Shown: positions 18,003 to 36,161 of the stretch, in pieces
Position numbering within the stretch: position 1 is the stretch's first letter
Layout of the letters: each line of letters opens with the position of its first letter
Origin: Acidobacteria bacterium RIFCSPLOWO2_12_FULL_66_21
GTDB taxonomy: Bacteria > Acidobacteriota > Vicinamibacteria > Vicinamibacterales > 2-12-FULL-66-21
DNA length: 64,000 nucleotides
Direction of reading: 5' to 3'
Assembly (NCBI GenBank): GCA_001767455.1
Contig: MELC01000060.1
Location: 50,571-114,570, forward strand
The notes under the pieces: generated by a model
Told to the model about the DNA's origin: nothing
Databases searched by the model: none
Seen by the model: the letters and a program-made list of their open reading frames with translations, nothing else
Program-made: the position numbers and the translations under genes

Positions 18003-18862
18003 TCAGCGATTCTGTACGAATTGGAACCCGAAGCGTCCCTTGATGCAGAGATGCCCGCTCGTGACGTCGTGATCGAGCGGCGAGGTCACGCGCACGATCG
18101 AGTTGTCCTGCACGCGCAGCTGCAGCGTGCAGCCCACGCCGCAGTAGCCGCAGATCGTCTCGGTCACGGTCTGGCGGCTCTCGTCCCATGTGCCCGCCGC
18201 GCGCATGTCGTGCTCCGACTTGAACATCAGCGCCCCGGTGGGGCACACGCCGATGCAGTTGCCGCAGTAGACGCACGCGGAGTCGGGCAGCGGATGGTCG
18301 AACTCGGTCGCGATCGTCGCGCCGAAGCCGCGGCCTGACACCGCGATCGCGAACGTGTTCTGCGCGTCGGCGCCGCACGCTTCCACGCATTTGTAACAGA
18401 GGATGCAGCGCGAGTAGTCGCGGACGTACAGCTCGTTGTCCACCTTGACGGGCTGCGCGACCCTCGCCGCCCTCGGCCCGAACCGTTCCGGGCTCGCGCC
18501 GTAGCGCGCCATGTCCTCGCGCACGCGCGCGGGGGCCAGCGACAGGTCGACCGACGAAGCCAGCAGCTCGAAGACGACCCGCCGGCTGTGCCTGACGCGC
18601 TCCGAGTCGGTGTGCACCACCATCTTCGGCTCGACGGGGCGCGAGCAGGCCGGGACGAGCGCGCGCGAGCCCTCGACCTCCACGACGCAGACGCGGCACA
18701 CGTTCACCGGCGTGAGCGTCTCGAGGTAGCACAGGGTCGGCGTGTCGATGCCAACCGAGCGGCACGCCTGCAGCAGCGTCGTGCCTTCCGGCACGCGGAC
18801 CTGCCGGCCGTCAATCGTCAGCTCGACCTCGCGCGACGGCGGAGCGGGAATCGCGGCGCCCG

Positions 18863-18866
<4 letters not shown>
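18003..18866 (-). CDS. Formate dehydrogenase Fe-S subunit (detached N-terminal part of FdhA)
   Basis: A 287-residue iron-sulfur protein. Residues 15-90 form a 2Fe-2S ferredoxin-like domain with ligands Cys46, 57, 60 and 74. Two 4Fe-4S motifs follow (CILCYKCVEAC, then CVYCGNCIGVCPTG, about 150-210). From about 235 comes the Mo/W-enzyme 4Fe-4S domain: CGYCGVGC and a fourth cysteine in LCIKGRFGF. In ordinary NAD-linked formate dehydrogenases this last domain is the start of the catalytic chain; here the protein stops immediately after it and the catalytic part is a separate upstream gene. Its ATG overlaps the NuoEF stop codon (ATGA). It should relay electrons between the molybdenum site and the FMN subunit. 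Confidence 0.92.
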
Positions 18867-20731
<1,865 letters not shown>

Positions 20732-20732
20732 G

Positions 20733-22670
20733 CTAGACGGCCTCCACGGCGGACCCGGCCGCGCTCAGCGCCGGCTGCACGCAGACTTTCTCGACGCGGA
20801 TGGCGGAGGCCTTGAACTCTGCCGTGCCGGACTTCGGATCCACCGCGTCGATGGTCAGCAGGTTGGTTTCGACCTGCTCCGGGAAATGGAACGTCATGAA
20901 CGTCAGGCCCGCTCGAAGCCCCGGATCGACGTGAATCGGCGCCTCCACGGCACCGCGCCGCGAGACGACGCGCACGATCTCCCCCTCGACGACGCCGAGA
21001 CGACGGGCGTCCTCCGGCGAGACATCCAGCGTCTCGCCGCGGCGCATCGGCGACGCGTAGCCGCCCGTCTGCACGCCGGTGTTGAACGAATCGAGCCGGC
21101 GGCCGGTCGTGAGACGCAGCGGAAATTCCTCCGTCAGCCGATCGACCGGCGGGTCGAAGACCACCGGCATGAACGGCGCGGACGGCCCCTCGACGGGATC
21201 CTCCCAGAGCCGATCGTGCAGCAGCGGGCTTCCAGGGTGCGTGTCGTGCGGACACGGCCACTGCAGCCCGCCGAGTTGCTCGAGCCGCTCGTAGCTCATC
21301 CCGCGATGCCACGGCGACAGCGCCCGCAGCTCGTTCCACACGGCTTCCGCGGTCGGCGTCTCCCACGGATGGCCCAGCCGGCGCGCGAGTTCGCACAGGA
21401 TGTCGATGTCGTCCCGCGCGCCGCCGGGCGGGTCGAGCGCCTTGCGGACGCGCTGCACGCGCCGCTCGCTGCTCGTCACGGTCCCTTCGGACTCGCACCA
21501 CGAGGCCGCGGCGGGAAGCACGACGTCGGCAATCTCCGCCGTTCGCGTCAGGAAGATGTCCTGGACGATCAGATGATCGAGTCCGGTCAGCAGTTTCCTG
21601 GCACGGTGCGCGTCGGCCTCGGACTGGATCGGGTTCTCGCCGATGATGTACAGCGTCCGCAGGTCCCCCCGCTCCATCGCCTCGAACATCTCGCTCAGAT
21701 GCCAGCCGCGCTTGGGAGGAAGCGTGACGCCATACGCGCGCTCGAACCTGGCGCGATGCTCCGGATTCTCCACGTCCTGGCCGCCGACGAACTTGTTGGG
21801 GATGGCGCCCATGTCGCCTCCCCCCTGCACGTTGTTCTGGCCGCGCAGCGGCACCAGGCCGGATCCGAACCGTCCCACGTGTCCCGTCAGCAGGGCGAGG
21901 TTGATGATGGCAAAGACGTTGTCGACCGCGTTGTGATGCTCGGTGATCCCGAGCGTCCAGCACACCTGCGCGCGGTCCGCGCGCGCGTAGGCATGCGCGA
22001 GCTCCTGAATCACGCTGGCCGACACCCCCGTGATCGTCTCGGCGTGCTCGAGGGTGTAGGGCTCGACGCTCTCGCGATACGCCTCGAAGCCGGTCGTCGC
22101 GCGCTCGATGAACGCGCGGTTCGTCAGGCCCGCGTGGATGATCTCGCGGCCGATCGCATTGGCCAGCGCGATGTCGGACCCGACGTCGAGGCCGAGCCAC
22201 ACGTCGGCCCACGCCGCGGAGCTCGTACGGCGCGGATCGATGGCATACATCCGCGCACCGCGCCGCTTCCCCTTCAACAGGTGATGGAAGAAGATCGGAT
22301 GCGTCTCCCGCGCATTCGAGCCCCACAGGATGATGAGGTCGGTCTCCTCAATCTCCCTGTACGCGCTCGTGCCGCCGCCCGCTCCGAATACCGTCGTCAG
22401 ACCGACGACGCTCGGGGCATGTCAAGTACGGTTGCAGCTGTCGATGTTGTTGCTGCCGATCACCCCGCGGGCAAACTTCTGCGCGAGGTAGTTCACCTCG
22501 TTGGTGGCCTTCGAGCAGCTGAACATCCCGAAGCGCCAGGGATCCCGCGCGTCGATCGCCGTGCGCAGCCCGGCGGCCGCGCGGTCGAACGCCTCGTCCC
22601 ACGTGGCCTCCCGCAGGACTCCGTCCTGCCGCACGAGCGGACGCCTCAACCTGACGAGATTGGCCTTCAT
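20733..22670 (-). CDS. fdhA: Formate dehydrogenase catalytic subunit, selenoprotein (Sec83)
   Basis: Read through one in-frame TGA (22422-22424), the gene encodes 645 residues of the molybdopterin formate dehydrogenase fold. The TGA lies in SCNRT-U-HAPSVVGL, exactly where FDH enzymes carry the Sec/Cys ligand to molybdenum followed by the catalytic His. Downstream landmarks include GSNARETHPIFFHHLLKGKR, AIDPRRT, PLRGQNNVQGGGDMG, IGENPIQSEAD, LTRTAEIADVVLPAA and the C-terminal MGD-binding region with LTTGRRLDSFNTG. Reading stays in frame on both sides and a SECIS hairpin follows the TGA. The chain begins at MKANLVRLRRPLVRQDG, so the 4Fe-4S domain that should precede it is missing and is supplied by the gene at 18003-18866. 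It oxidises formate to CO2 or reduces CO2. No maturation gene lies nearby. Confidence 0.94.
22384..22424 (-). promoter_or_regulatory. Bacterial SECIS element of fdhA
   Basis: On the coding strand the UGA codon is followed after exactly 18 bases by the loop GGUCU, closed by a perfect stem CGUCGUC/GACGACG. A lower stem CCGAG/UUCGG lies below a three-base bulge. The GGUCU loop and the 18-base spacing are the same as in the E. coli fdhF SECIS recognised by SelB. Confidence 0.93.
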
Positions 22671-22747: not shown

Positions 22748-23212
22748 ATGCTCATCCGTACTGTCGTACTAACGGCTGGTCTCGTCGCTCTTGTGACCGC
22801 GTGCGGCGGGGAGACGACTGCGCCGCCGACGTCGGACCCGTCGGCGATTCCCGCTCCGGCGGACGTCGCGGCTCCGCCGGCCGACGCGGTGAAGACTTCC
22901 TCCGGCCTCGCGTACAAGGTGCTCACGCCCGGAGGCGGCAGCCAGCACCCGCGGCCGAACTCGCGCGTGACCGTGCAGTACACCGGCTGGACGACGGATG
23001 GAAAAATGTTCGACAGCTCACTCCTCCAGCCGCAGCCGCTGACGATCGGTCTCGACGAGGTCATCGCTGGCTGGACCGAGGGCGTGCAGATGATGGTCCC
23101 CGGCGAGACGCGCCGCTTCTGGATCCCGCAGAACCTCGCCTACCAGGGGCAGCCCGACAAGCCCGCGGGGATGCTCGTGTTCGATATCGAGCTGCTCAAG
23201 ATCGTGTCGTGA
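22748..23212 (+). CDS. FKBP-type peptidyl-prolyl isomerase lipoprotein
   Basis: A 154-residue lipoprotein: signal with lipobox LVTAC (Cys at about 19), a Pro/Ala-rich linker to about residue 48, then one FKBP domain. Diagnostic segments are SGLAYKVL, SRVTVQYTGWTTDGKMFDSS, IAGWTEGVQMMVPGETRRFW and FDIELLKI, which build the active-site pocket for prolyl isomerisation. It should assist folding of exported proteins at the outer face of a membrane. It is a single gene, divergent from the formate dehydrogenase operon, probably from a leaderless transcript. Confidence 0.92.
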   Translation: MLIRTVVLTAGLVALVTACGGETTAPPTSDPSAIPAPADVAAPPADAVKTSSGLAYKVLTPGGGSQHPRPNSRVTVQYTGWTTDGKMFDSSLLQPQPLTIGLDEVIAGWTEGVQMMVPGETRRFWIPQNLAYQGQPDKPAGMLVFDIELLKIVS

Positions 23213-28983: not shown

Positions 28984-29823
28984 ATGGGCTCCATGCACTA
29001 CAGACGCCTACCCAACGTCCGCCGTGACGGGCCGGACAGCCGTTTTGCCACGGCGCTGCGGGGCCTCGCCGTCGATCGCCGCGACCGGATCTACGCGGTC
29101 GGCGACGCCGAGGTGAAAATCTTCGATCGCGACGGGCGGCTGCAGCGGCGGTGGCCGACCTCGCGGCCCGGCTGCTCCGTCGCGGTTGACGAATACGATC
29201 GTGTGTACGTCGGCGAGACCGGGCAACTGGAGATCTTCGACGCCACGGGCCGTCTGGCCGACGTCTGGCGTCACGCGTCGCGGCTCGGACGCGTGACCGC
29301 GATCGATTTTGCCGGCGGCGACGTCCTCGTGGGCGACGCGAACGACCGCGCGATCCGGCGCTACGACGAGCACGGATCGTTCATGAACGACATCGGCAAG
29401 AACAACCGGATGCAGGGCTTCCTGATCCCGAACGGCGTGATCGAGTTCGCCGTCGACCGCGCGGGCGTGATTCAGGCGGCCAATCCGGGGAAGCACCGCA
29501 TCGAGCGCTACACGCTCGACGACCGCCTGCTCGGCCACATCGGCCGCTTCGACGGCGTCGACCCCGCGGGGTTCCCGGGCTGCTGCAACCCCACCAATCT
29601 CGCGGTGGACGTTCGCGGGCGCATCTACGTCACCGAAAAGGCGGATCCGCGCGTCAAGGTGTACAACGACGACGGCACACTGGTCGCGGTCGTGGCGTCG
29701 GAAGGGTTCGATCCGAACTGCAAGAACATGGATATCGCCGTGGACTCGCGAGGGCGGGTCTACGTGACGGATCCCGTGCGGCTCGACATCCTCGCCTTCG
29801 AGACGGAAGGGGCGGCATCATGA
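28984..29823 (+). CDS. NHL-repeat propeller protein, first gene of the redox operon
   Basis: A 279-residue six-bladed propeller of the NHL type: ALRGLAVDRRDRIYAVGDAE, GCSVAVDEYDRVYVGETG, NPTNLAVDVRGRIYVTEKAD and MDIAVDSRGRVYVTDP. No signal peptide is visible. Residues GCCNPTN form an unusual double cysteine. It overlaps the ferredoxin gene by ATGA, so it belongs to the redox operon, perhaps as a scaffold or sensing subunit. No enzymatic motif is seen. Confidence 0.85.
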   Translation: MGSMHYRRLPNVRRDGPDSRFATALRGLAVDRRDRIYAVGDAEVKIFDRDGRLQRRWPTSRPGCSVAVDEYDRVYVGETGQLEIFDATGRLADVWRHASRLGRVTAIDFAGGDVLVGDANDRAIRRYDEHGSFMNDIGKNNRMQGFLIPNGVIEFAVDRAGVIQAANPGKHRIERYTLDDRLLGHIGRFDGVDPAGFPGCCNPTNLAVDVRGRIYVTEKADPRVKVYNDDGTLVAVVASEGFDPNCKNMDIAVDSRGRVYVTDPVRLDILAFETEGAAS

Positions 29824-30440
29824 GCGACGGCATCACCCGCCGCGACGCGCTCGGGCGCGTCGTCCGCGGCACCGTGCTGCTCGGTCTCGGCAGCACCGCG
29901 GGTTTCCTGATCAACAAGGCCGAGGGGCAGGTCGTCTGGCAGGTCGACACCTCGCGCTGCGTGAACAGCCGTCTCGGCGAGGCGGGCGCCGAAGTCTGCA
30001 TGCTCTGCACCACGCAGTGCGTCGTGGCGCAGTCGGCCGTGCGGGCGATCAACAGCTTCCGCGACTGCGGCCGCTGCTACGTCTGCCCGGCGTACTACAA
30101 CATCAGGAGCGCCGTCGACGAGCGCGGACTGCCGAGCGAGAAACTGTGCCCGCGCGACGCCATCCGGCGGACGCCCATCGGCTTCGTCGATCCGGAGGAT
30201 CCCGCCAACAACTTCTACGAGTACGTCATCGAGGAGGAGAAGTGCGACGGGTGCGGCCTGTGCGTGAAGGCATGCCGCGAGCCGCTCGGCCTCGGGTCGA
30301 TCGTGCTGAAAGTCCGGCACAACCTGTGCGTGGACTGCAACCGCTGCGCGATCTCGATCGCGTGTCCGCACGACGCCCTCTTCCAGCACAAAGTGGCCGA
30401 CGCGCTCGAGCCCACGCTCGCCAGACAGCCACAGCCATGA
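29820..30440 (+). CDS. Ferredoxin-type 4Fe-4S protein with Tat-like N-terminus
   Basis: A 206-residue NapG-like polyferredoxin. TRRDALGRVVRGTVLLGLGS at the N-terminus looks like a twin-arginine signal or anchor. Cysteine clusters follow: VCMLCTTQC, DCGRCYVCPAYYN, KCDGCGLCVKACREP and LCVDCNRCAISIACPHDA, enough for about four 4Fe-4S clusters. It would pass electrons between the membrane polyferredoxin and a partner outside or at the membrane. It is coupled by ATGA overlaps on both sides. Confidence 0.87.
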   Translation: MSDGITRRDALGRVVRGTVLLGLGSTAGFLINKAEGQVVWQVDTSRCVNSRLGEAGAEVCMLCTTQCVVAQSAVRAINSFRDCGRCYVCPAYYNIRSAVDERGLPSEKLCPRDAIRRTPIGFVDPEDPANNFYEYVIEEEKCDGCGLCVKACREPLGLGSIVLKVRHNLCVDCNRCAISIACPHDALFQHKVADALEPTLARQPQP

Positions 30441-31396
30441 CGTCCAGGGCCCCGCGGTCGGTCCGGCTGCTCGCCGCGGCGGTCCTCGCCGGGGTGCTGT
30501 CGGGCGCCCACGTCGCCGCGCAGGCCATCCAGTACGAGCGCCCGGTCCAGGTCGCTCCCCAGCAGGAGACGATTGGCGGCGGCTACGTCACGCCGGACGT
30601 GCAGCGGCCGCGCCCGCGCGAGTACTGGCTCCAGGTGGCGGACGTCGGGCTCCTCGCCGTCGCGATGGCGCTTGCCGTCTGGTTCGTGATCGAGCGGCGC
30701 AGCCGCGCATGGACGCTCACACTGACCGCCGCGTCGCTGGCGTATTTCGGCTTCTACCGCCAGGGCTGCATCTGCCCGATCGGGTCGATTCAGAACGTCG
30801 CGGTCGCGCTGACCGATTCCACCTACTCGATCCCCATGGTGGTGACGGCCGTGTTCTTCATGCCGCTCGTGGTCGCGCTGTTTGTCGGCCGCGCGTTCTG
30901 CGGGAGCGTCTGCCCGCTCGGCGCGATGCAGGAGCTGGTCGTCCTCAAGCCGATCCAGGTGCCGCGGCGCCTCGACAACGCGCTCGGGCTCCTGAAGTAC
31001 GTCTACCTGGCGCTGGCGATCGGCCTGGCGATCCGTCCGGAGATCGCGCGCGATTTCGTCATCTGCCGGTTCGATCCATTCGTCGGCTTCTTCCGGCGCG
31101 AAGGCTTCGCGCACATGATGGCCATCGGCGCGGGCTTCCTCGTGCTCGGAACGGTCGTCGGACGTCCGTACTGCCGCTACCTGTGTCCGTACGGCGGACT
31201 GCTCTCGTGGTGCTCGCGGCTCGCGACACGCGGCGTGACCATCACGCCGGCGAAGGAGCTGGATTGCGGGCTCTGCGCGAAGGCGTGCCCCTACGGCGCG
31301 ATCGATCGCATGCGCGCCGTCAGGAAGGAGTGCCTGTACTGCGCGCGGTGCTACGCGTCGTGCCCGTGTGAAGCCACCCCCGGAGTGGCGGTGTGA
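30437..31396 (+). CDS. NapH/NosR-like membrane polyferredoxin
   Basis: A 319-residue membrane protein. A signal-like segment is followed by helices near residues 70-115 and 130-260 that carry the paired cysteine-proline motifs GCICPIGSIQ and CGSVCPLGAMQELV, then RYLCPYGGL. Two classical 4Fe-4S sites lie at the C-terminus: DCGLCAKACPYGA and ECLYCARCYASCPCEA. NapH/NosR relatives move electrons from quinol across the membrane. The FMN-binding domain of full NosR is absent. Gene overlaps (ATGA before, GTGA after) tie it to the ferredoxin and the NuoE protein. Confidence 0.88.
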   Translation: MTSRAPRSVRLLAAAVLAGVLSGAHVAAQAIQYERPVQVAPQQETIGGGYVTPDVQRPRPREYWLQVADVGLLAVAMALAVWFVIERRSRAWTLTLTAASLAYFGFYRQGCICPIGSIQNVAVALTDSTYSIPMVVTAVFFMPLVVALFVGRAFCGSVCPLGAMQELVVLKPIQVPRRLDNALGLLKYVYLALAIGLAIRPEIARDFVICRFDPFVGFFRREGFAHMMAIGAGFLVLGTVVGRPYCRYLCPYGGLLSWCSRLATRGVTITPAKELDCGLCAKACPYGAIDRMRAVRKECLYCARCYASCPCEATPGVAV

Positions 31397-32295
31397 CGGC
31401 GCGGGCGCCATGGCGCCCGGTCGCACGTGCCGGCGCCGCGGTCGCCGCCGGCTTCGTGTGTCTTCTGGCAGGCGTGCTCGTCGCCGATTACGTGAGCGCG
31501 CGGCGCGAAGAACCGCGGGAGCAGGCGCGCATCACCGAGCTCCAGGTGCAGGCGCAGACCGATCCGTCGGCCGCCCGGGCGCTCGCGGCGGAACAGGATC
31601 GCGTGACGCGCGGCCGCCAGCAGCGGAAAGCGCGCAAGAACGCGATTGCCATCCTGCTGATCGTCTGTGCGTCGGCATTCGTCGGTGCCGCCAAATGGAT
31701 CAACGCGATGGAGGGACGCCGTCCGCATGCCTTGCCGGTCAAGGCGATCCCCATGGCCGTCGCCGCGCCCGTGACCCTCCCGTCCGCCGGCGCATCCGCG
31801 CCAAGCCCGGGGCTGCCCGCACCGCTCGACCTGACATTCGTCGACGAGCTCGTTGGCCGGGAAGGACGCAGCAGGGAATCCGCGATCCCGATCCTCCAGG
31901 CGATCCAGGCGCACTACGGGTACCTGCCCGACGACGCGCTGCGGCGCGTCACGGAGCTGACCGAGATCACGCCCGCGCAGGTCGCGGGAACGTCCACCTT
32001 CTACGCGCGCTTCCGCCGATCGCCCGTGGGTGAACACATCGTGCGCGTGTGCCACGGGACGGCCTGTCACGTGTCCGGCGCCCGCGCGATCACGGAGGAG
32101 CTCCGCCGGCAATTGCACATTCGCGACGGCGCCGATACGGATCCCGCCGGGCTGTTCACGATCGACGAAGTCGCCTGTCTCGGATGCTGCAGCCTGGCGC
32201 CCGTGCTGATGGTGGACGAGCGCACGGCCGGCGGCCTGACGCCCGCTTCCGCGTATGCCGCCCTTGGCGCGGCGCGGCACCCGGAGCCCGCATGA
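31393..32295 (+). CDS. NuoE-type 2Fe-2S protein with two N-terminal membrane helices
   Basis: A 300-residue protein. Residues 1-105 contain two hydrophobic helices (AGAAVAAGFVCLLAGVLVAD and AIAILLIVCASAFVGAAKW) joined by a charged stretch. Residues about 140-290 are a NuoE/24-kDa domain: AIQAHYGYLPDDAL, the cysteines of VCHGTACHVSG and CLGCCSLAPV. NuoE proteins are normally soluble, so this one appears tethered to the membrane. The GTG start overlaps the previous stop by four bases. It would carry electrons between the NuoF partner and the membrane subunits. Confidence 0.9.
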   Translation: MTARAPWRPVARAGAAVAAGFVCLLAGVLVADYVSARREEPREQARITELQVQAQTDPSAARALAAEQDRVTRGRQQRKARKNAIAILLIVCASAFVGAAKWINAMEGRRPHALPVKAIPMAVAAPVTLPSAGASAPSPGLPAPLDLTFVDELVGREGRSRESAIPILQAIQAHYGYLPDDALRRVTELTEITPAQVAGTSTFYARFRRSPVGEHIVRVCHGTACHVSGARAITEELRRQLHIRDGADTDPAGLFTIDEVACLGCCSLAPVLMVDERTAGGLTPASAYAALGAARHPEPA

Positions 32296-34133
32296 CGCCC
32301 GGCCCCCTCGAGATTCGTGTCGGCCTCGGCTCGTGCGGCCTCGCGAGCGGCGGCGAGGCGGTGCGGGCGGCGCTCCTCGACGAGGCGCGCGCCGCCGGCG
32401 TGCCCGGCTGCATCAAGACCGTCGGGTGCAACGGCATGTGCCATCGCGAGCCGATCGTGGAGGTCATCTCGGGCGGGGGCACCGCCACGCTCTACGGCCA
32501 CGTCACGCCCGAGGCCGCGCGCGCCATCGCGCGGGCGCACATCGAGCCGCGGCGGCTCTCGACATGGACGCGCTGGAAAGCCTCGGCGCTCCTCGACATC
32601 GTCGCGCCCCGGAACGATCGCGCCGAGCTGGAACGCTGCCGCGTCGATCGCCGGGCCGGCGCGGCGGCGGCCTATCTCTCCAAGCAGCGCCGCATCGTCC
32701 TCGAGAACTGCGGCGAGATCGACCCGCTCGACATCGATGCGTACGTGGCCCGCGACGGCTACCGGGCCCTCGAGGAATGCGTCAGGGGCCTTCCGGCCGA
32801 GCGGGTTGTCTCCACGATTCTCGAGTCCGGGCTGCGCGGCCGCGGCGGTGCCGGCTTCCCCACCGGGCGCAAGTGGTCCGTGGCGCGCGCGGAGCCCAGC
32901 TCGACGAAGTACGTGATCTGCAACGGCGACGAAGGCGACCCGGGCGCGTTCATGGACCGGCTCGTGCTCGAAGCGGATCCCCACCGTGTCGTGGAAGGGC
33001 TGGCGATTGCCGCGTACGCCGTGGGCGCCGCGCACGGGTTCTTCTACGTTCGCGCGGAGTATCCGCTGGCGGTCAAACGGATCCGGGAGGCCATCGCGCA
33101 GGCGGAAGCTCGCGGGTATCTCGGCCCGCGTATCCTCGGGTCCGACTTTTCGTTGCACGTGGAGCTCCGCGAGGGCGCGGGGGCGTTCGTGTGCGGCGAG
33201 GAGACCGCGCTGATCCTCTCGCTCGAGGGGCAGCGGGGCATGCCGAAGCTTCGTCCGCCCTATCCCGCGCAGTCGGGCTTCCGCGGGCGGCCCACCATCA
33301 TCAACAATGTCGAGACGCTGGCGTGCGTGCCGTGGATTCTGCGGCACGGGTCCGGGGCGTTCGCCGCCCTGGGCACGCCGACGAGCAAGGGCACCAAGGT
33401 GTTCGCGCTCGCGGGAAAGGTCAAGCACGGCGGGCTGATCGAAGTGCCGATGGGGATCACGATCCGGGAGATCGTCGAAGGGGTCGGCGGCGGGATCAAG
33501 GCCGGCCGGCGCTTCAAGGCGGTGCAGATCGGCGGTCCTTCAGGCGGGTGCATTCCGGCGCGGCTCGCCGATACGCCCGTCGACTACGACGCGCTCGCGC
33601 AGACGGGGGCGATCATGGGTTCGGGCGGTCTCGTCGTGCTCGACGATCGCGACTGCATGGTGGACATCGCGCGCTTCTTCCTGCGGTTCACCCAGTCGGA
33701 GTCGTGCGGCAAGTGCACGTTCTGCCGCATCGGGACGAAGCGGATGCTGGAGATCCTCGACCGGCTGTGCGAGGGCCGCGGCAGGGACGACGATCTTCAG
33801 AAGCTGGAGACGCTCGCCGACTACGTCAGCCGCGGGAGCCTGTGCGGCCTCGGCCAGACCGCGCCGAACCCGGTGGCGACGACGCTGCGCTATTTCAGGG
33901 ACGAGTACGAGGCGCACCTGCACGAGAAGCGCTGTCCTGCCGGCCGGTGTCCGACGCTGATCGAGTACCGGGTGAAGGACACCTGCACCGGCTGCACGCT
34001 GTGCGCGCAGGCATGCCCGGTCGGCGCGATCGAGTTCAAGCCGTACGAGCGGCACGCGATTGACACCACGCTGTGCACGCGGTGCGACATGTGCTTCCAG
34101 GCATGCAAAGACGACGCGATTGAAGTGGCATAG
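32292..34133 (+). CDS. NuoF-like NADH-binding flavoprotein with extra ferredoxin domains
   Basis: A 613-residue protein in the three-part form known from HndC/HydB-type subunits. Residues 1-90 are a thioredoxin-like 2Fe-2S domain (GSCGLASGG, VGCNGMCHREP). Residues about 130-540 are the FMN/NADH core: GRGGAGFPTGRKW, VICNGDEGDPGAFMDR, GAFVCGEETALILSLEG, SESCGKCTFCRIGTKR and SLCGLGQTAPNP. The C-terminal 60 residues hold two 4Fe-4S motifs (CTGCTLCAQACPVGA, CTRCDMCFQAC). It should oxidise NADH or reduce NAD+. It overlaps the NuoE gene (ATGA); the next gene starts one base after its TAG. Confidence 0.93.
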   Translation: MTPGPLEIRVGLGSCGLASGGEAVRAALLDEARAAGVPGCIKTVGCNGMCHREPIVEVISGGGTATLYGHVTPEAARAIARAHIEPRRLSTWTRWKASALLDIVAPRNDRAELERCRVDRRAGAAAAYLSKQRRIVLENCGEIDPLDIDAYVARDGYRALEECVRGLPAERVVSTILESGLRGRGGAGFPTGRKWSVARAEPSSTKYVICNGDEGDPGAFMDRLVLEADPHRVVEGLAIAAYAVGAAHGFFYVRAEYPLAVKRIREAIAQAEARGYLGPRILGSDFSLHVELREGAGAFVCGEETALILSLEGQRGMPKLRPPYPAQSGFRGRPTIINNVETLACVPWILRHGSGAFAALGTPTSKGTKVFALAGKVKHGGLIEVPMGITIREIVEGVGGGIKAGRRFKAVQIGGPSGGCIPARLADTPVDYDALAQTGAIMGSGGLVVLDDRDCMVDIARFFLRFTQSESCGKCTFCRIGTKRMLEILDRLCEGRGRDDDLQKLETLADYVSRGSLCGLGQTAPNPVATTLRYFRDEYEAHLHEKRCPAGRCPTLIEYRVKDTCTGCTLCAQACPVGAIEFKPYERHAIDTTLCTRCDMCFQACKDDAIEVA

Positions 34134-36161
34134 ATGGCAACGATCGAGCTGACCATCGACGGGCGCCGCGTCAGCGTTGACGCGGGGACGACCGTGCTCG
34201 ACGCGGCCCGAGCGGCGGGGATCCGGATTCCGACGCTCTGCCACGTCCGCGGGCTGGAGCCCGCCGCGTCCTGTTTCGTCTGCGCCGTTCAGATCGACGG
34301 CCGCCGGACGCTCTCGCCCTCGTGCGCGCTCGCGGCCGCCGACGGCATGGCCGTCCGAACCGATACCGCCGACGTGCGGCAGGCGCGCAGAATCGCGCTC
34401 GAGCTGCTGCTGTCGGATCATGCGGGGGATTGTGTGGCGCCCTGCACGATCCGCTGCCCGGCGCTGCTCGACATCCCCGGGTTCGTGCGCGAGATCGGCG
34501 CCGGCAACAACCGCCGGTCGATGGAAATCCTCACCGAGCGCCTGGCGCTTCCGGGCGCGCTCGGCCGCGTGTGCCCGAGGCTGTGCGAGCAGGAATGCCG
34601 GAGGTCGCAGCACGATTCCGCGCTCGCGATAGGCGCGCTGCACGCACACTCGGCCGACGAAGATCTCGGCTCGGAGGACCCGTACATTCCCGTGCGCGCG
34701 GCGGCGAGCGGCAAGTCCGTCGCGATCATCGGCGCGGGACCGGCCGGCCTCTCGGCCGCCTATTTTCTCCTCCGGAAAGGACACGGGTGCACGCTGTTCG
34801 ACGCGTCGCAGGAGCCCGGCGGCATGCTGCGGTACGGCATCCCGTCGTATCGCCTGCCCAAGGACGCGCTGGACGCCGAGATCGGCACGATCCGCGCGCT
34901 GGGCGCCGAGTTCCGGATGAACGCCCGGTGGGGGATCGATTTCACGCTCGCCGAGCTCGGCCGCGCATATGATGCCGTGTTCGTGGCGATTGGCGCCCAA
35001 CGCGCGCAGGGGCTCGGGTGCGAAGGCGACGAGCTGGCGCTGTCCGGCGTCGAGTTGCTGGCGATGCTCGCGCACGGCAACCCGCCGGTCCTCGGCGATC
35101 GCGTGGTGGTCCTCGGCGGCGGCAACACCGCGATGGACTGCGCGCGATCGGCGGTGCGACTCGGCGCGGGCAGCGTCAGCGTGCTCTACCGGCGCACGCG
35201 CCCGGACATGCCGTGCCTCATGGACGAGGTGGACGCGGCCGAGGCCGAAGGGGTCCGCATCGAGTTCCTGGTGTCGCCCTCGAGCCTGGAGCGCACCCGC
35301 GATCGGCGGCTGCTCCTGACCTGCCACCGGATGCAGGCCGGCGCGCCGGACGGATCCGGCAGGCGTCAGCCAATCCCGATCGCCGGATCGGAATTCACGA
35401 TCGAATGCTCTGCCCTCGTCGCCGCGATCGGGCAGATGGTGGATCGCTCGGTGGCGGAACGGGACGGACTGCAGGTGAGCGGCTCGGGCATTGCCGTGAA
35501 CGAGACGACGCTCGAGACGAGCATCCGCGGCGTCTTCGCCGGCGGAGACGCCGTGCTCGGCGCGGATCTCGCCGTCCGCGCCGTCGCCGCGGGGAGGATG
35601 GCCGCCGTGTCCATCGATCAGTTCGTGCGCGGCGACGCCGTCACGGGCGAGCAGGCGCCCTGGCACATCGCCATGCAGCCGATCGACGACGACGAACGCG
35701 CGGCCATGTTCCGGGAGGTGGAGCGGAGCGGCCGGCACATCGACTCCGATCCCCGCGCGGAAGCGCGGCGGTGCCTCTCGTGCGGCTGCTCGAAGGCGGA
35801 CTGCTGCGAGATGCGGAGGCTCGCCGCGGATTACGGCGCCGACCCTTATGTCTTCGCGGGCGCGCGCAGGCGCTTCTCGCGCGACAGCTCGCACGCGGAA
35901 ATCGTGTACGAGCCAGGCAAGTGCATCATGTGCGCCGCCTGCGTCCGTATCGCCGAGGAGGCCGGAGAGCCGGCCGGCGTGAGTATCGTGAACCGCGGAT
36001 TCGACGTGACCGTAGCCGTGCCCTTCGGCGGATCGATGGCCGACGGGCTGCGCGCGTCGGCGACGCGGTGTGCCGACGCGTGCCCCACCGGCGCGCTTGC
36101 CAGGTCACCCGACCTGAAGGTCGGGCCTGTATGGCGGCCGATTCCCAAGGAGACTCCATGA
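34134..36161 (+). CDS. NuoG-N/GltD-like FAD oxidoreductase with Fe-S domains
   Basis: A 675-residue multidomain protein. Residues 1-75 form a 2Fe-2S ferredoxin domain (Cys36, 47, 50 and 64). A NuoG-type cysteine segment follows (DHAGDCVAPCTIRCPA). Residues about 195-510 are a GltD/NfnB-like FAD-NAD(P)H oxidoreductase: VAIIGAGPAGLSAAYFLL, PGGMLRYGIPSYRLPK, VVVLGGGNTAMDCARSAVRL, GVFAGGDAVLGADLAVRA. The C-terminal region has CLSCGCSKADCC and CIMCAACVRIAEE plus CADACPTGA, for further clusters. The family moves electrons between NAD(P)H and Fe-S carriers and is a partner of NuoE/NuoF in bifurcating enzymes. No hydrogenase or FDH catalytic subunit is encoded beside it. Confidence 0.92.
   Translation: MATIELTIDGRRVSVDAGTTVLDAARAAGIRIPTLCHVRGLEPAASCFVCAVQIDGRRTLSPSCALAAADGMAVRTDTADVRQARRIALELLLSDHAGDCVAPCTIRCPALLDIPGFVREIGAGNNRRSMEILTERLALPGALGRVCPRLCEQECRRSQHDSALAIGALHAHSADEDLGSEDPYIPVRAAASGKSVAIIGAGPAGLSAAYFLLRKGHGCTLFDASQEPGGMLRYGIPSYRLPKDALDAEIGTIRALGAEFRMNARWGIDFTLAELGRAYDAVFVAIGAQRAQGLGCEGDELALSGVELLAMLAHGNPPVLGDRVVVLGGGNTAMDCARSAVRLGAGSVSVLYRRTRPDMPCLMDEVDAAEAEGVRIEFLVSPSSLERTRDRRLLLTCHRMQAGAPDGSGRRQPIPIAGSEFTIECSALVAAIGQMVDRSVAERDGLQVSGSGIAVNETTLETSIRGVFAGGDAVLGADLAVRAVAAGRMAAVSIDQFVRGDAVTGEQAPWHIAMQPIDDDERAAMFREVERSGRHIDSDPRAEARRCLSCGCSKADCCEMRRLAADYGADPYVFAGARRRFSRDSSHAEIVYEPGKCIMCAACVRIAEEAGEPAGVSIVNRGFDVTVAVPFGGSMADGLRASATRCADACPTGALARSPDLKVGPVWRPIPKETP

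Follow-up and report, generated by a model that had tools for sequence, protein, structure and literature searches.

In the window, a stretch of 64,000 nucleotides from an acidobacterial genome, we identified a three-gene operon that very probably encodes a soluble, NAD(H)-linked selenocysteine (Sec) formate dehydrogenase (FDH). The catalytic subunit of this enzyme appears to be split and, at the level of the genes, circularly permuted, with a core that would be formed by two polypeptides. Both the assembly of the two parts and the activity of the enzyme are predicted from sequence.

The three genes (C, EF and N) lie head to tail on the minus strand (Table 1). Gene 2 starts one base past the stop codon of gene 1, and the start of gene 3 overlaps the stop of gene 2 in an ATGA. 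The upstream neighbour (22748-23212), which is FKBP-like as named from its sequence, is divergent, and the region past gene 3 carries plus-strand genes whose sequences suggest an amino-acid ABC transporter. Given these neighbours on both sides, the unit consists of three genes. Elsewhere in the window, on the plus strand (29820-36161), a second redox module of the NuoE/NuoF type was observed. It comprises a Fer4 protein, a membrane Fer4 (NapH-like) protein, a NuoE with an N-terminal membrane segment, a NuoF with extra 4Fe-4S, and a [2Fe-2S] + GltD/NfnB-like flavoprotein. This module may be an NAD(P)H or ferredoxin oxidoreductase attached to the membrane.

Table 1. Features of the split formate dehydrogenase operon (positions in the window)
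Feature	Position	Strand	Description
Gene 1 (C)	20733..22670	minus	Predicted Sec- and Mo/W-bisPGD-binding part of FDH alpha, 645 aa with TGA read as Sec83
Gene 2 (EF)	18863..20731	minus	NuoE-NuoF fusion diaphorase, 622 aa: 2Fe-2S, FMN/NAD site, 4Fe-4S
Gene 3 (N)	18003..18866	minus	HoxU-like electron-transfer subunit (2Fe-2S, two 4Fe-4S); C-terminus is the FDH Fe4S4 domain
Displaced Fe4S4 domain	18006..18170	minus	Residues 234-288 of P0002 (gene 3 product): Cys240, 243, 247, 275, Lys277
Sec codon 83 (in-frame TGA)	22422..22424	minus	Kept in relatives; Sec machinery in genome
bSECIS apical hairpin	22392..22410	minus	7-bp stem 22410-22404 / 22398-22392, loop GGUCU 22403-22399

The frame of gene 1 (22670-20733) is interrupted only once, by a TGA at codon 83, and reads ...DSCNRT-U-HAPSVVGL..., as described in the initial annotation. 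The expectation that automatic annotation would break the gene was also confirmed: mechanical ORF calling yields a truncated gene of 514 aa (20733-22277) that lacks the first 131 residues. For the hairpin, a 7-bp stem had been placed 18 bases after the TGA. The stem is perfect and carries a GGTCT loop, but the 18 nt lead to the start of the loop, and the stem itself starts 11 nt after the TGA. In fdhF of E. coli MG1655, GGTCT was measured to start 18 nt after the TGA likewise, in agreement with the parallel that had been drawn. The reading as a selenoprotein was corroborated by comparison with relatives. TGA is found at this codon in 101/101 of them, which excludes a sequencing error, one of the two ways in which this reading had been said to be open to failure; the other was a lack of Sec machinery in the genome. 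RT-U-HAPS surrounds the TGA in all 101 relatives examined, and the pair Sec83-His84 is kept in 101/101. The hairpin is kept as well, with the loop GGUCU in 99 of 101 sequences. The glycine codon of the loop is GGT in 99 of 101 sequences, compared to 565 GGT among the 5591 glycine codons in the rest of these genes. Pairs 1-6 of the stem are formed in 99-101 of 101 sequences, with pair 2 varying between TA, CG and TG. A single-sequence fold of the hairpin in the window did not differ significantly from shuffles (z = -0.86), and an Rfam scan of the window gave nothing at the gathering threshold. The fold of the hairpin alone is thus unexceptional, and the evidence for a bSECIS element is comparative. 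We conclude that the in-frame TGA does specify selenocysteine in an enzyme of formate metabolism. Sec formate dehydrogenases in themselves are proteins of a known kind.

The Sec machinery was found in the genome. Profile matches were obtained for SelA (534 bits), SelB (348 bits) and SelD (360 bits), and a tRNA-Sec with the anticodon UCA is present. A second tRNA-Sec candidate (L014) was rejected, as it is a tRNA-Ser. In the SelD of this genome (L010 1490-1545, C42), too, a TGA interrupts the frame close to the start (SSCAG-U-ASKL), which brings the selenoproteins of the genome to at least two. In the same class, gene 1 or a fragment of it occurs in 42 genomes; SelA is present in 37 of these, and the other five have SelB above the curated cut-off. 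FDH maturation requires FdhD, which is encoded in the genome and, in 18 relatives, near the operon.

Gene 1 had been described as the catalytic subunit of formate dehydrogenase. This holds for the FDH core, but the subunit is incomplete. Positions 53-672 of the FDH alpha model TIGR01591 (672 positions) match gene 1 with 648 bits, whereas positions 1-50 match the last 50 residues of gene 3. The Fe4S4 domain that opens the model is absent from the gene 1 frame, which was overlooked in the initial annotation; about 52 first residues of the model, containing the proximal [4Fe-4S] domain and the essential lysine, have no counterpart there. Taken alone, gene 1 does not reach the curated cut-off of TIGR01591 (648 versus 666 bits). 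The Pfam domains are distributed in the same manner, with Molybdopterin and Molydop_binding on gene 1 and Molybdop_Fe4S4 (PF04879, 6.6e-18) at residues 234-287 of gene 3. The predicted structure of gene 1 (pLDDT 90) aligns to residues 56-693 of E. coli FDH-H over 626 residues (Z 43.6), that is, to all of this enzyme except the Fe4S4 domain. The gene 3 model (pLDDT 85) aligns over almost its full length with the N-terminal regions of NuoG-type subunits and MeFDH1. These comparisons place the break precisely where the Fe4S4 domain ends and the following domain begins.

The displaced domain retains its key residues. Its four cluster cysteines and the lysine corresponding to E. coli Lys44 do not vary across an alignment of 44 sequences, split and fused forms together. 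The full Cys4 and Lys motif was found in 70/71 gene 3 proteins, and 69/71 end at most 31 residues from the KGRF motif. In E. coli FDH-H, a change of Lys44 nearly abolishes activity and destabilises the cluster (PMC12176258). As the lysine of the split form is on gene 3, an active enzyme would have to receive this essential residue from another polypeptide.

To assess how widely the arrangement is kept, 104 loci were checked. The order C-EF-N was seen in 83/83 loci with enough flank; 20 end too early to tell, and one is L120. This locus was considered as a case of C without EF-N and rejected, because EF-N is present in a longer stretch, on the same strand and at a distance of 8 kb. The gap between C and EF is 0.5-3.9 kb in six loci. 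At L100, L110, L117, L141, L149 and L193, which are mostly labelled Chloroflexi, 0.8-8 kb of unrelated genes lie between C and EF-N, with order and strand kept. All homologues with at least 64% identity are split, and the next tier, at most 47% identical, is fused. In the nearest fused homologues, N and C are contiguous, mostly with EF upstream. Relative to the usual arrangement EF-[N-C], the order C-EF-N is circularly permuted. No intermediate that would reveal the route of permutation was found among the loci examined, and neither Cys nor fused versions were found within the clade among the best 80 named loci or the relatives with at least 64% identity.

The split forms group in one clade (30/30 bootstraps) that is nested among fused forms, which indicates that the split is derived and probably goes back to one event. 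The sister group of this clade is well supported locally in one tree, yet appears in 4/30 bootstraps, and for this reason no sister group is claimed. The split arrangement is common to more than 100 genomes under several phylum names. The named records mention in their titles Acidobacteria, Chloroflexi, Planctomycetota, Gemmatimonadetes, Eremiobacterota and Actinobacteria, among others. Most of these records are metagenome bins with loose labels; one, Aquisphaera insulae (JC669, L139), is an isolate. Because one carrier is an isolate, it seems likely, despite the loose labels, that the arrangement has spread across phyla, presumably by horizontal transfer. Plasmid homologues are all below 60% identity, the best at about 42%. 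A single event probably gave rise to the split, for instance a tandem duplication of EF-[N-C] followed by loss of both ends, and the split form then probably spread.

In the proposed enzyme, gene 1 would supply the part that binds Mo(or W)-bisPGD and carries the Sec ligand, gene 2 the NuoE-NuoF diaphorase, and gene 3 a HoxU-like electron wire ending in the Fe4S4 domain that elsewhere starts the catalytic polypeptide. In the FDH of R. capsulatus, electrons pass from Mo to FMN along A1-A2-A3-A5-B6. The first of these clusters, A1, is bound by the Fe4S4 domain; the His-ligated A4 sits at the dimer interface and is not part of this path (PMC7171172). The predicted ligands of A1, A2, A3 and A5 are all on gene 3, and those of B6 and FMN are on gene 2. 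With the A1 ligands on gene 3, the electron would leave the Sec-Mo subunit directly, across the interface, to A1. Formate would thus be oxidised at Sec-Mo, and the electron would cross from one subunit to the other to reach the proximal [4Fe-4S] cluster, supplied, like the essential lysine, by gene 3. From there it would pass through two more [4Fe-4S] clusters and the [2Fe-2S] cluster to the [4Fe-4S] cluster of NuoF, FMN and NAD+. The reverse flow, with reduction of CO2, may also be possible. A His-Cys3 motif, as for A4 of R. capsulatus FDH, was found in 0/71 gene 3 proteins and is also missing in some of the nearest fused forms. At the A4 site, many N subunits (e.g. L056, L063, L107, L117, L150) have a variable linker, often rich in His (GHHHA), and the N subunit of L060 has a long Ala/Ser repeat.

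Assignment of the operon to NAD(H)-linked formate chemistry is consistent with the NuoE/NuoF-type diaphorase encoded within it. In seven relatives (L051, L052, L053, L071, L074, L076, L079), a formate-tetrahydrofolate ligase-like gene, named from its sequence, lies near the operon, about 2.7 kb downstream of the end of gene 1, which suits a role of the operon in one-carbon metabolism. Gene 1 could instead belong to another molybdopterin oxidoreductase such as assimilatory nitrate reductase, and the NasC, NasA and Nap models do match it. However, these matches are weaker, and the Fdh-alpha model is far ahead (648 versus 395 bits). The best solved relatives of gene 1 are formate dehydrogenases, Sec-His and Arg276, invariant in the alignment, are retained, and FdhD or the formate-tetrahydrofolate ligase gene adjoins the operon in some relatives. 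We therefore regard a different oxidoreductase as highly improbable. The idea of a genuine stop or a sequencing error at the TGA, leaving a broken gene or a Cys enzyme, has practically no probability left; mechanical ORF calling halts at this codon, but the TGA and its hairpin are kept throughout the relatives and the Sec machinery of the genome is complete.

A slightly better case, though still a very unlikely one, can be made for the C and N parts functioning apart, with gene 3 as a plain HoxU-like subunit of another partner and a Sec-Mo subunit that works without a proximal cluster. The two parts are indeed on separate polypeptides, and C is distant from EF-N in a few genomes. Such a plain HoxU would have no use for an Fe4S4 domain, yet gene 3 keeps this domain with its four cysteines and lysine, in nearly all proteins compared, and a gene 3 bearing it always accompanies C, in order. 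A joint enzyme of the three gene products is thus the reading we prefer. Within it, the split might itself be functional: the Sec-Mo and the cluster/diaphorase subunits may assemble reversibly, or the catalytic part may undergo maturation and cofactor insertion first and be covered by the [4Fe-4S]/Lys domain only afterwards. We consider this idea speculative and rather doubtful. If true, the metal-to-cluster step would be the point of control for electron flow, oxygen sensitivity or partner choice. To our knowledge, such control has not been described for any molybdenum or tungsten FDH.

A split FDH was found neither in open-access full text nor in the part of a 2026 review on these enzymes that was searched, and the split, permuted catalytic subunit is apparently previously undescribed. 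The Sec codon truncates the open reading frame and the catalytic half falls below the cut-off of the standard FDH model; the enzyme has therefore probably been missed or misnamed in many genomes. A natural two-piece FDH would allow metal site and wire to be made, mutated and mixed separately, so that what the lysine and the proximal cluster contribute to formate/CO2 chemistry could be probed directly. The clade is also a stable example, under several phylum names, of an operon whose circular permutation passes through the interior of a gene.

The nearest precedent for the split is nad11 (NuoG) in diatoms and other stramenopiles (PMC8987724, PMC3999925), where a homologous subunit is likewise parted into an iron-sulfur and a molybdopterin-type piece. 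There, however, the pieces belong to a complex I subunit, are encoded by mitochondrial or nuclear genes, and show neither operon permutation nor Sec. For planctomycete P1, a horizontally transferred fdhA-nuoEF operon with a Sec fdhA has been reported, and the main text of that paper does not mention a split (PMC4807772). The closest homologues, at up to 47% identity, are the fused Sec FDHs of Acidobacteriota (L176-L186). They share the Sec codon, and three of them (L179, L182, L186) are likewise without the His-Cys3 motif, but N and C are fused and mostly in the order EF-[N-C] instead of C-EF-N. With E. coli FDH-H (fdhF), the enzyme shares the predicted Sec ligand, the spacing of the GGUCU bSECIS loop, the fold of the core and the Cys4 and Lys44 content of the Fe4S4 domain. 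In FDH-H this domain forms the N-terminus of the same chain, whereas here it is on the separate gene 3. A further close system is FdsABGD of Rhodobacter capsulatus (PDB 6tg9; PMC7171172), which has the same bisPGD core, proximal A1 cluster, chain of [4Fe-4S] and [2Fe-2S] clusters, and NuoE/NuoF-type diaphorase with FMN. In FdsABGD, core, A1 domain and chain form the single polypeptide FdsA with a Cys ligand; here, the core is separate and its predicted ligand is Sec, NuoE and NuoF form one fusion protein, the genes follow a permuted order, and the motif for the His-ligated A4 cluster is missing. The known metal FDHs compared here thus carry the metal-ligand domain and the domain of the proximal cluster and lysine on one chain, whereas the split clade has them apart.
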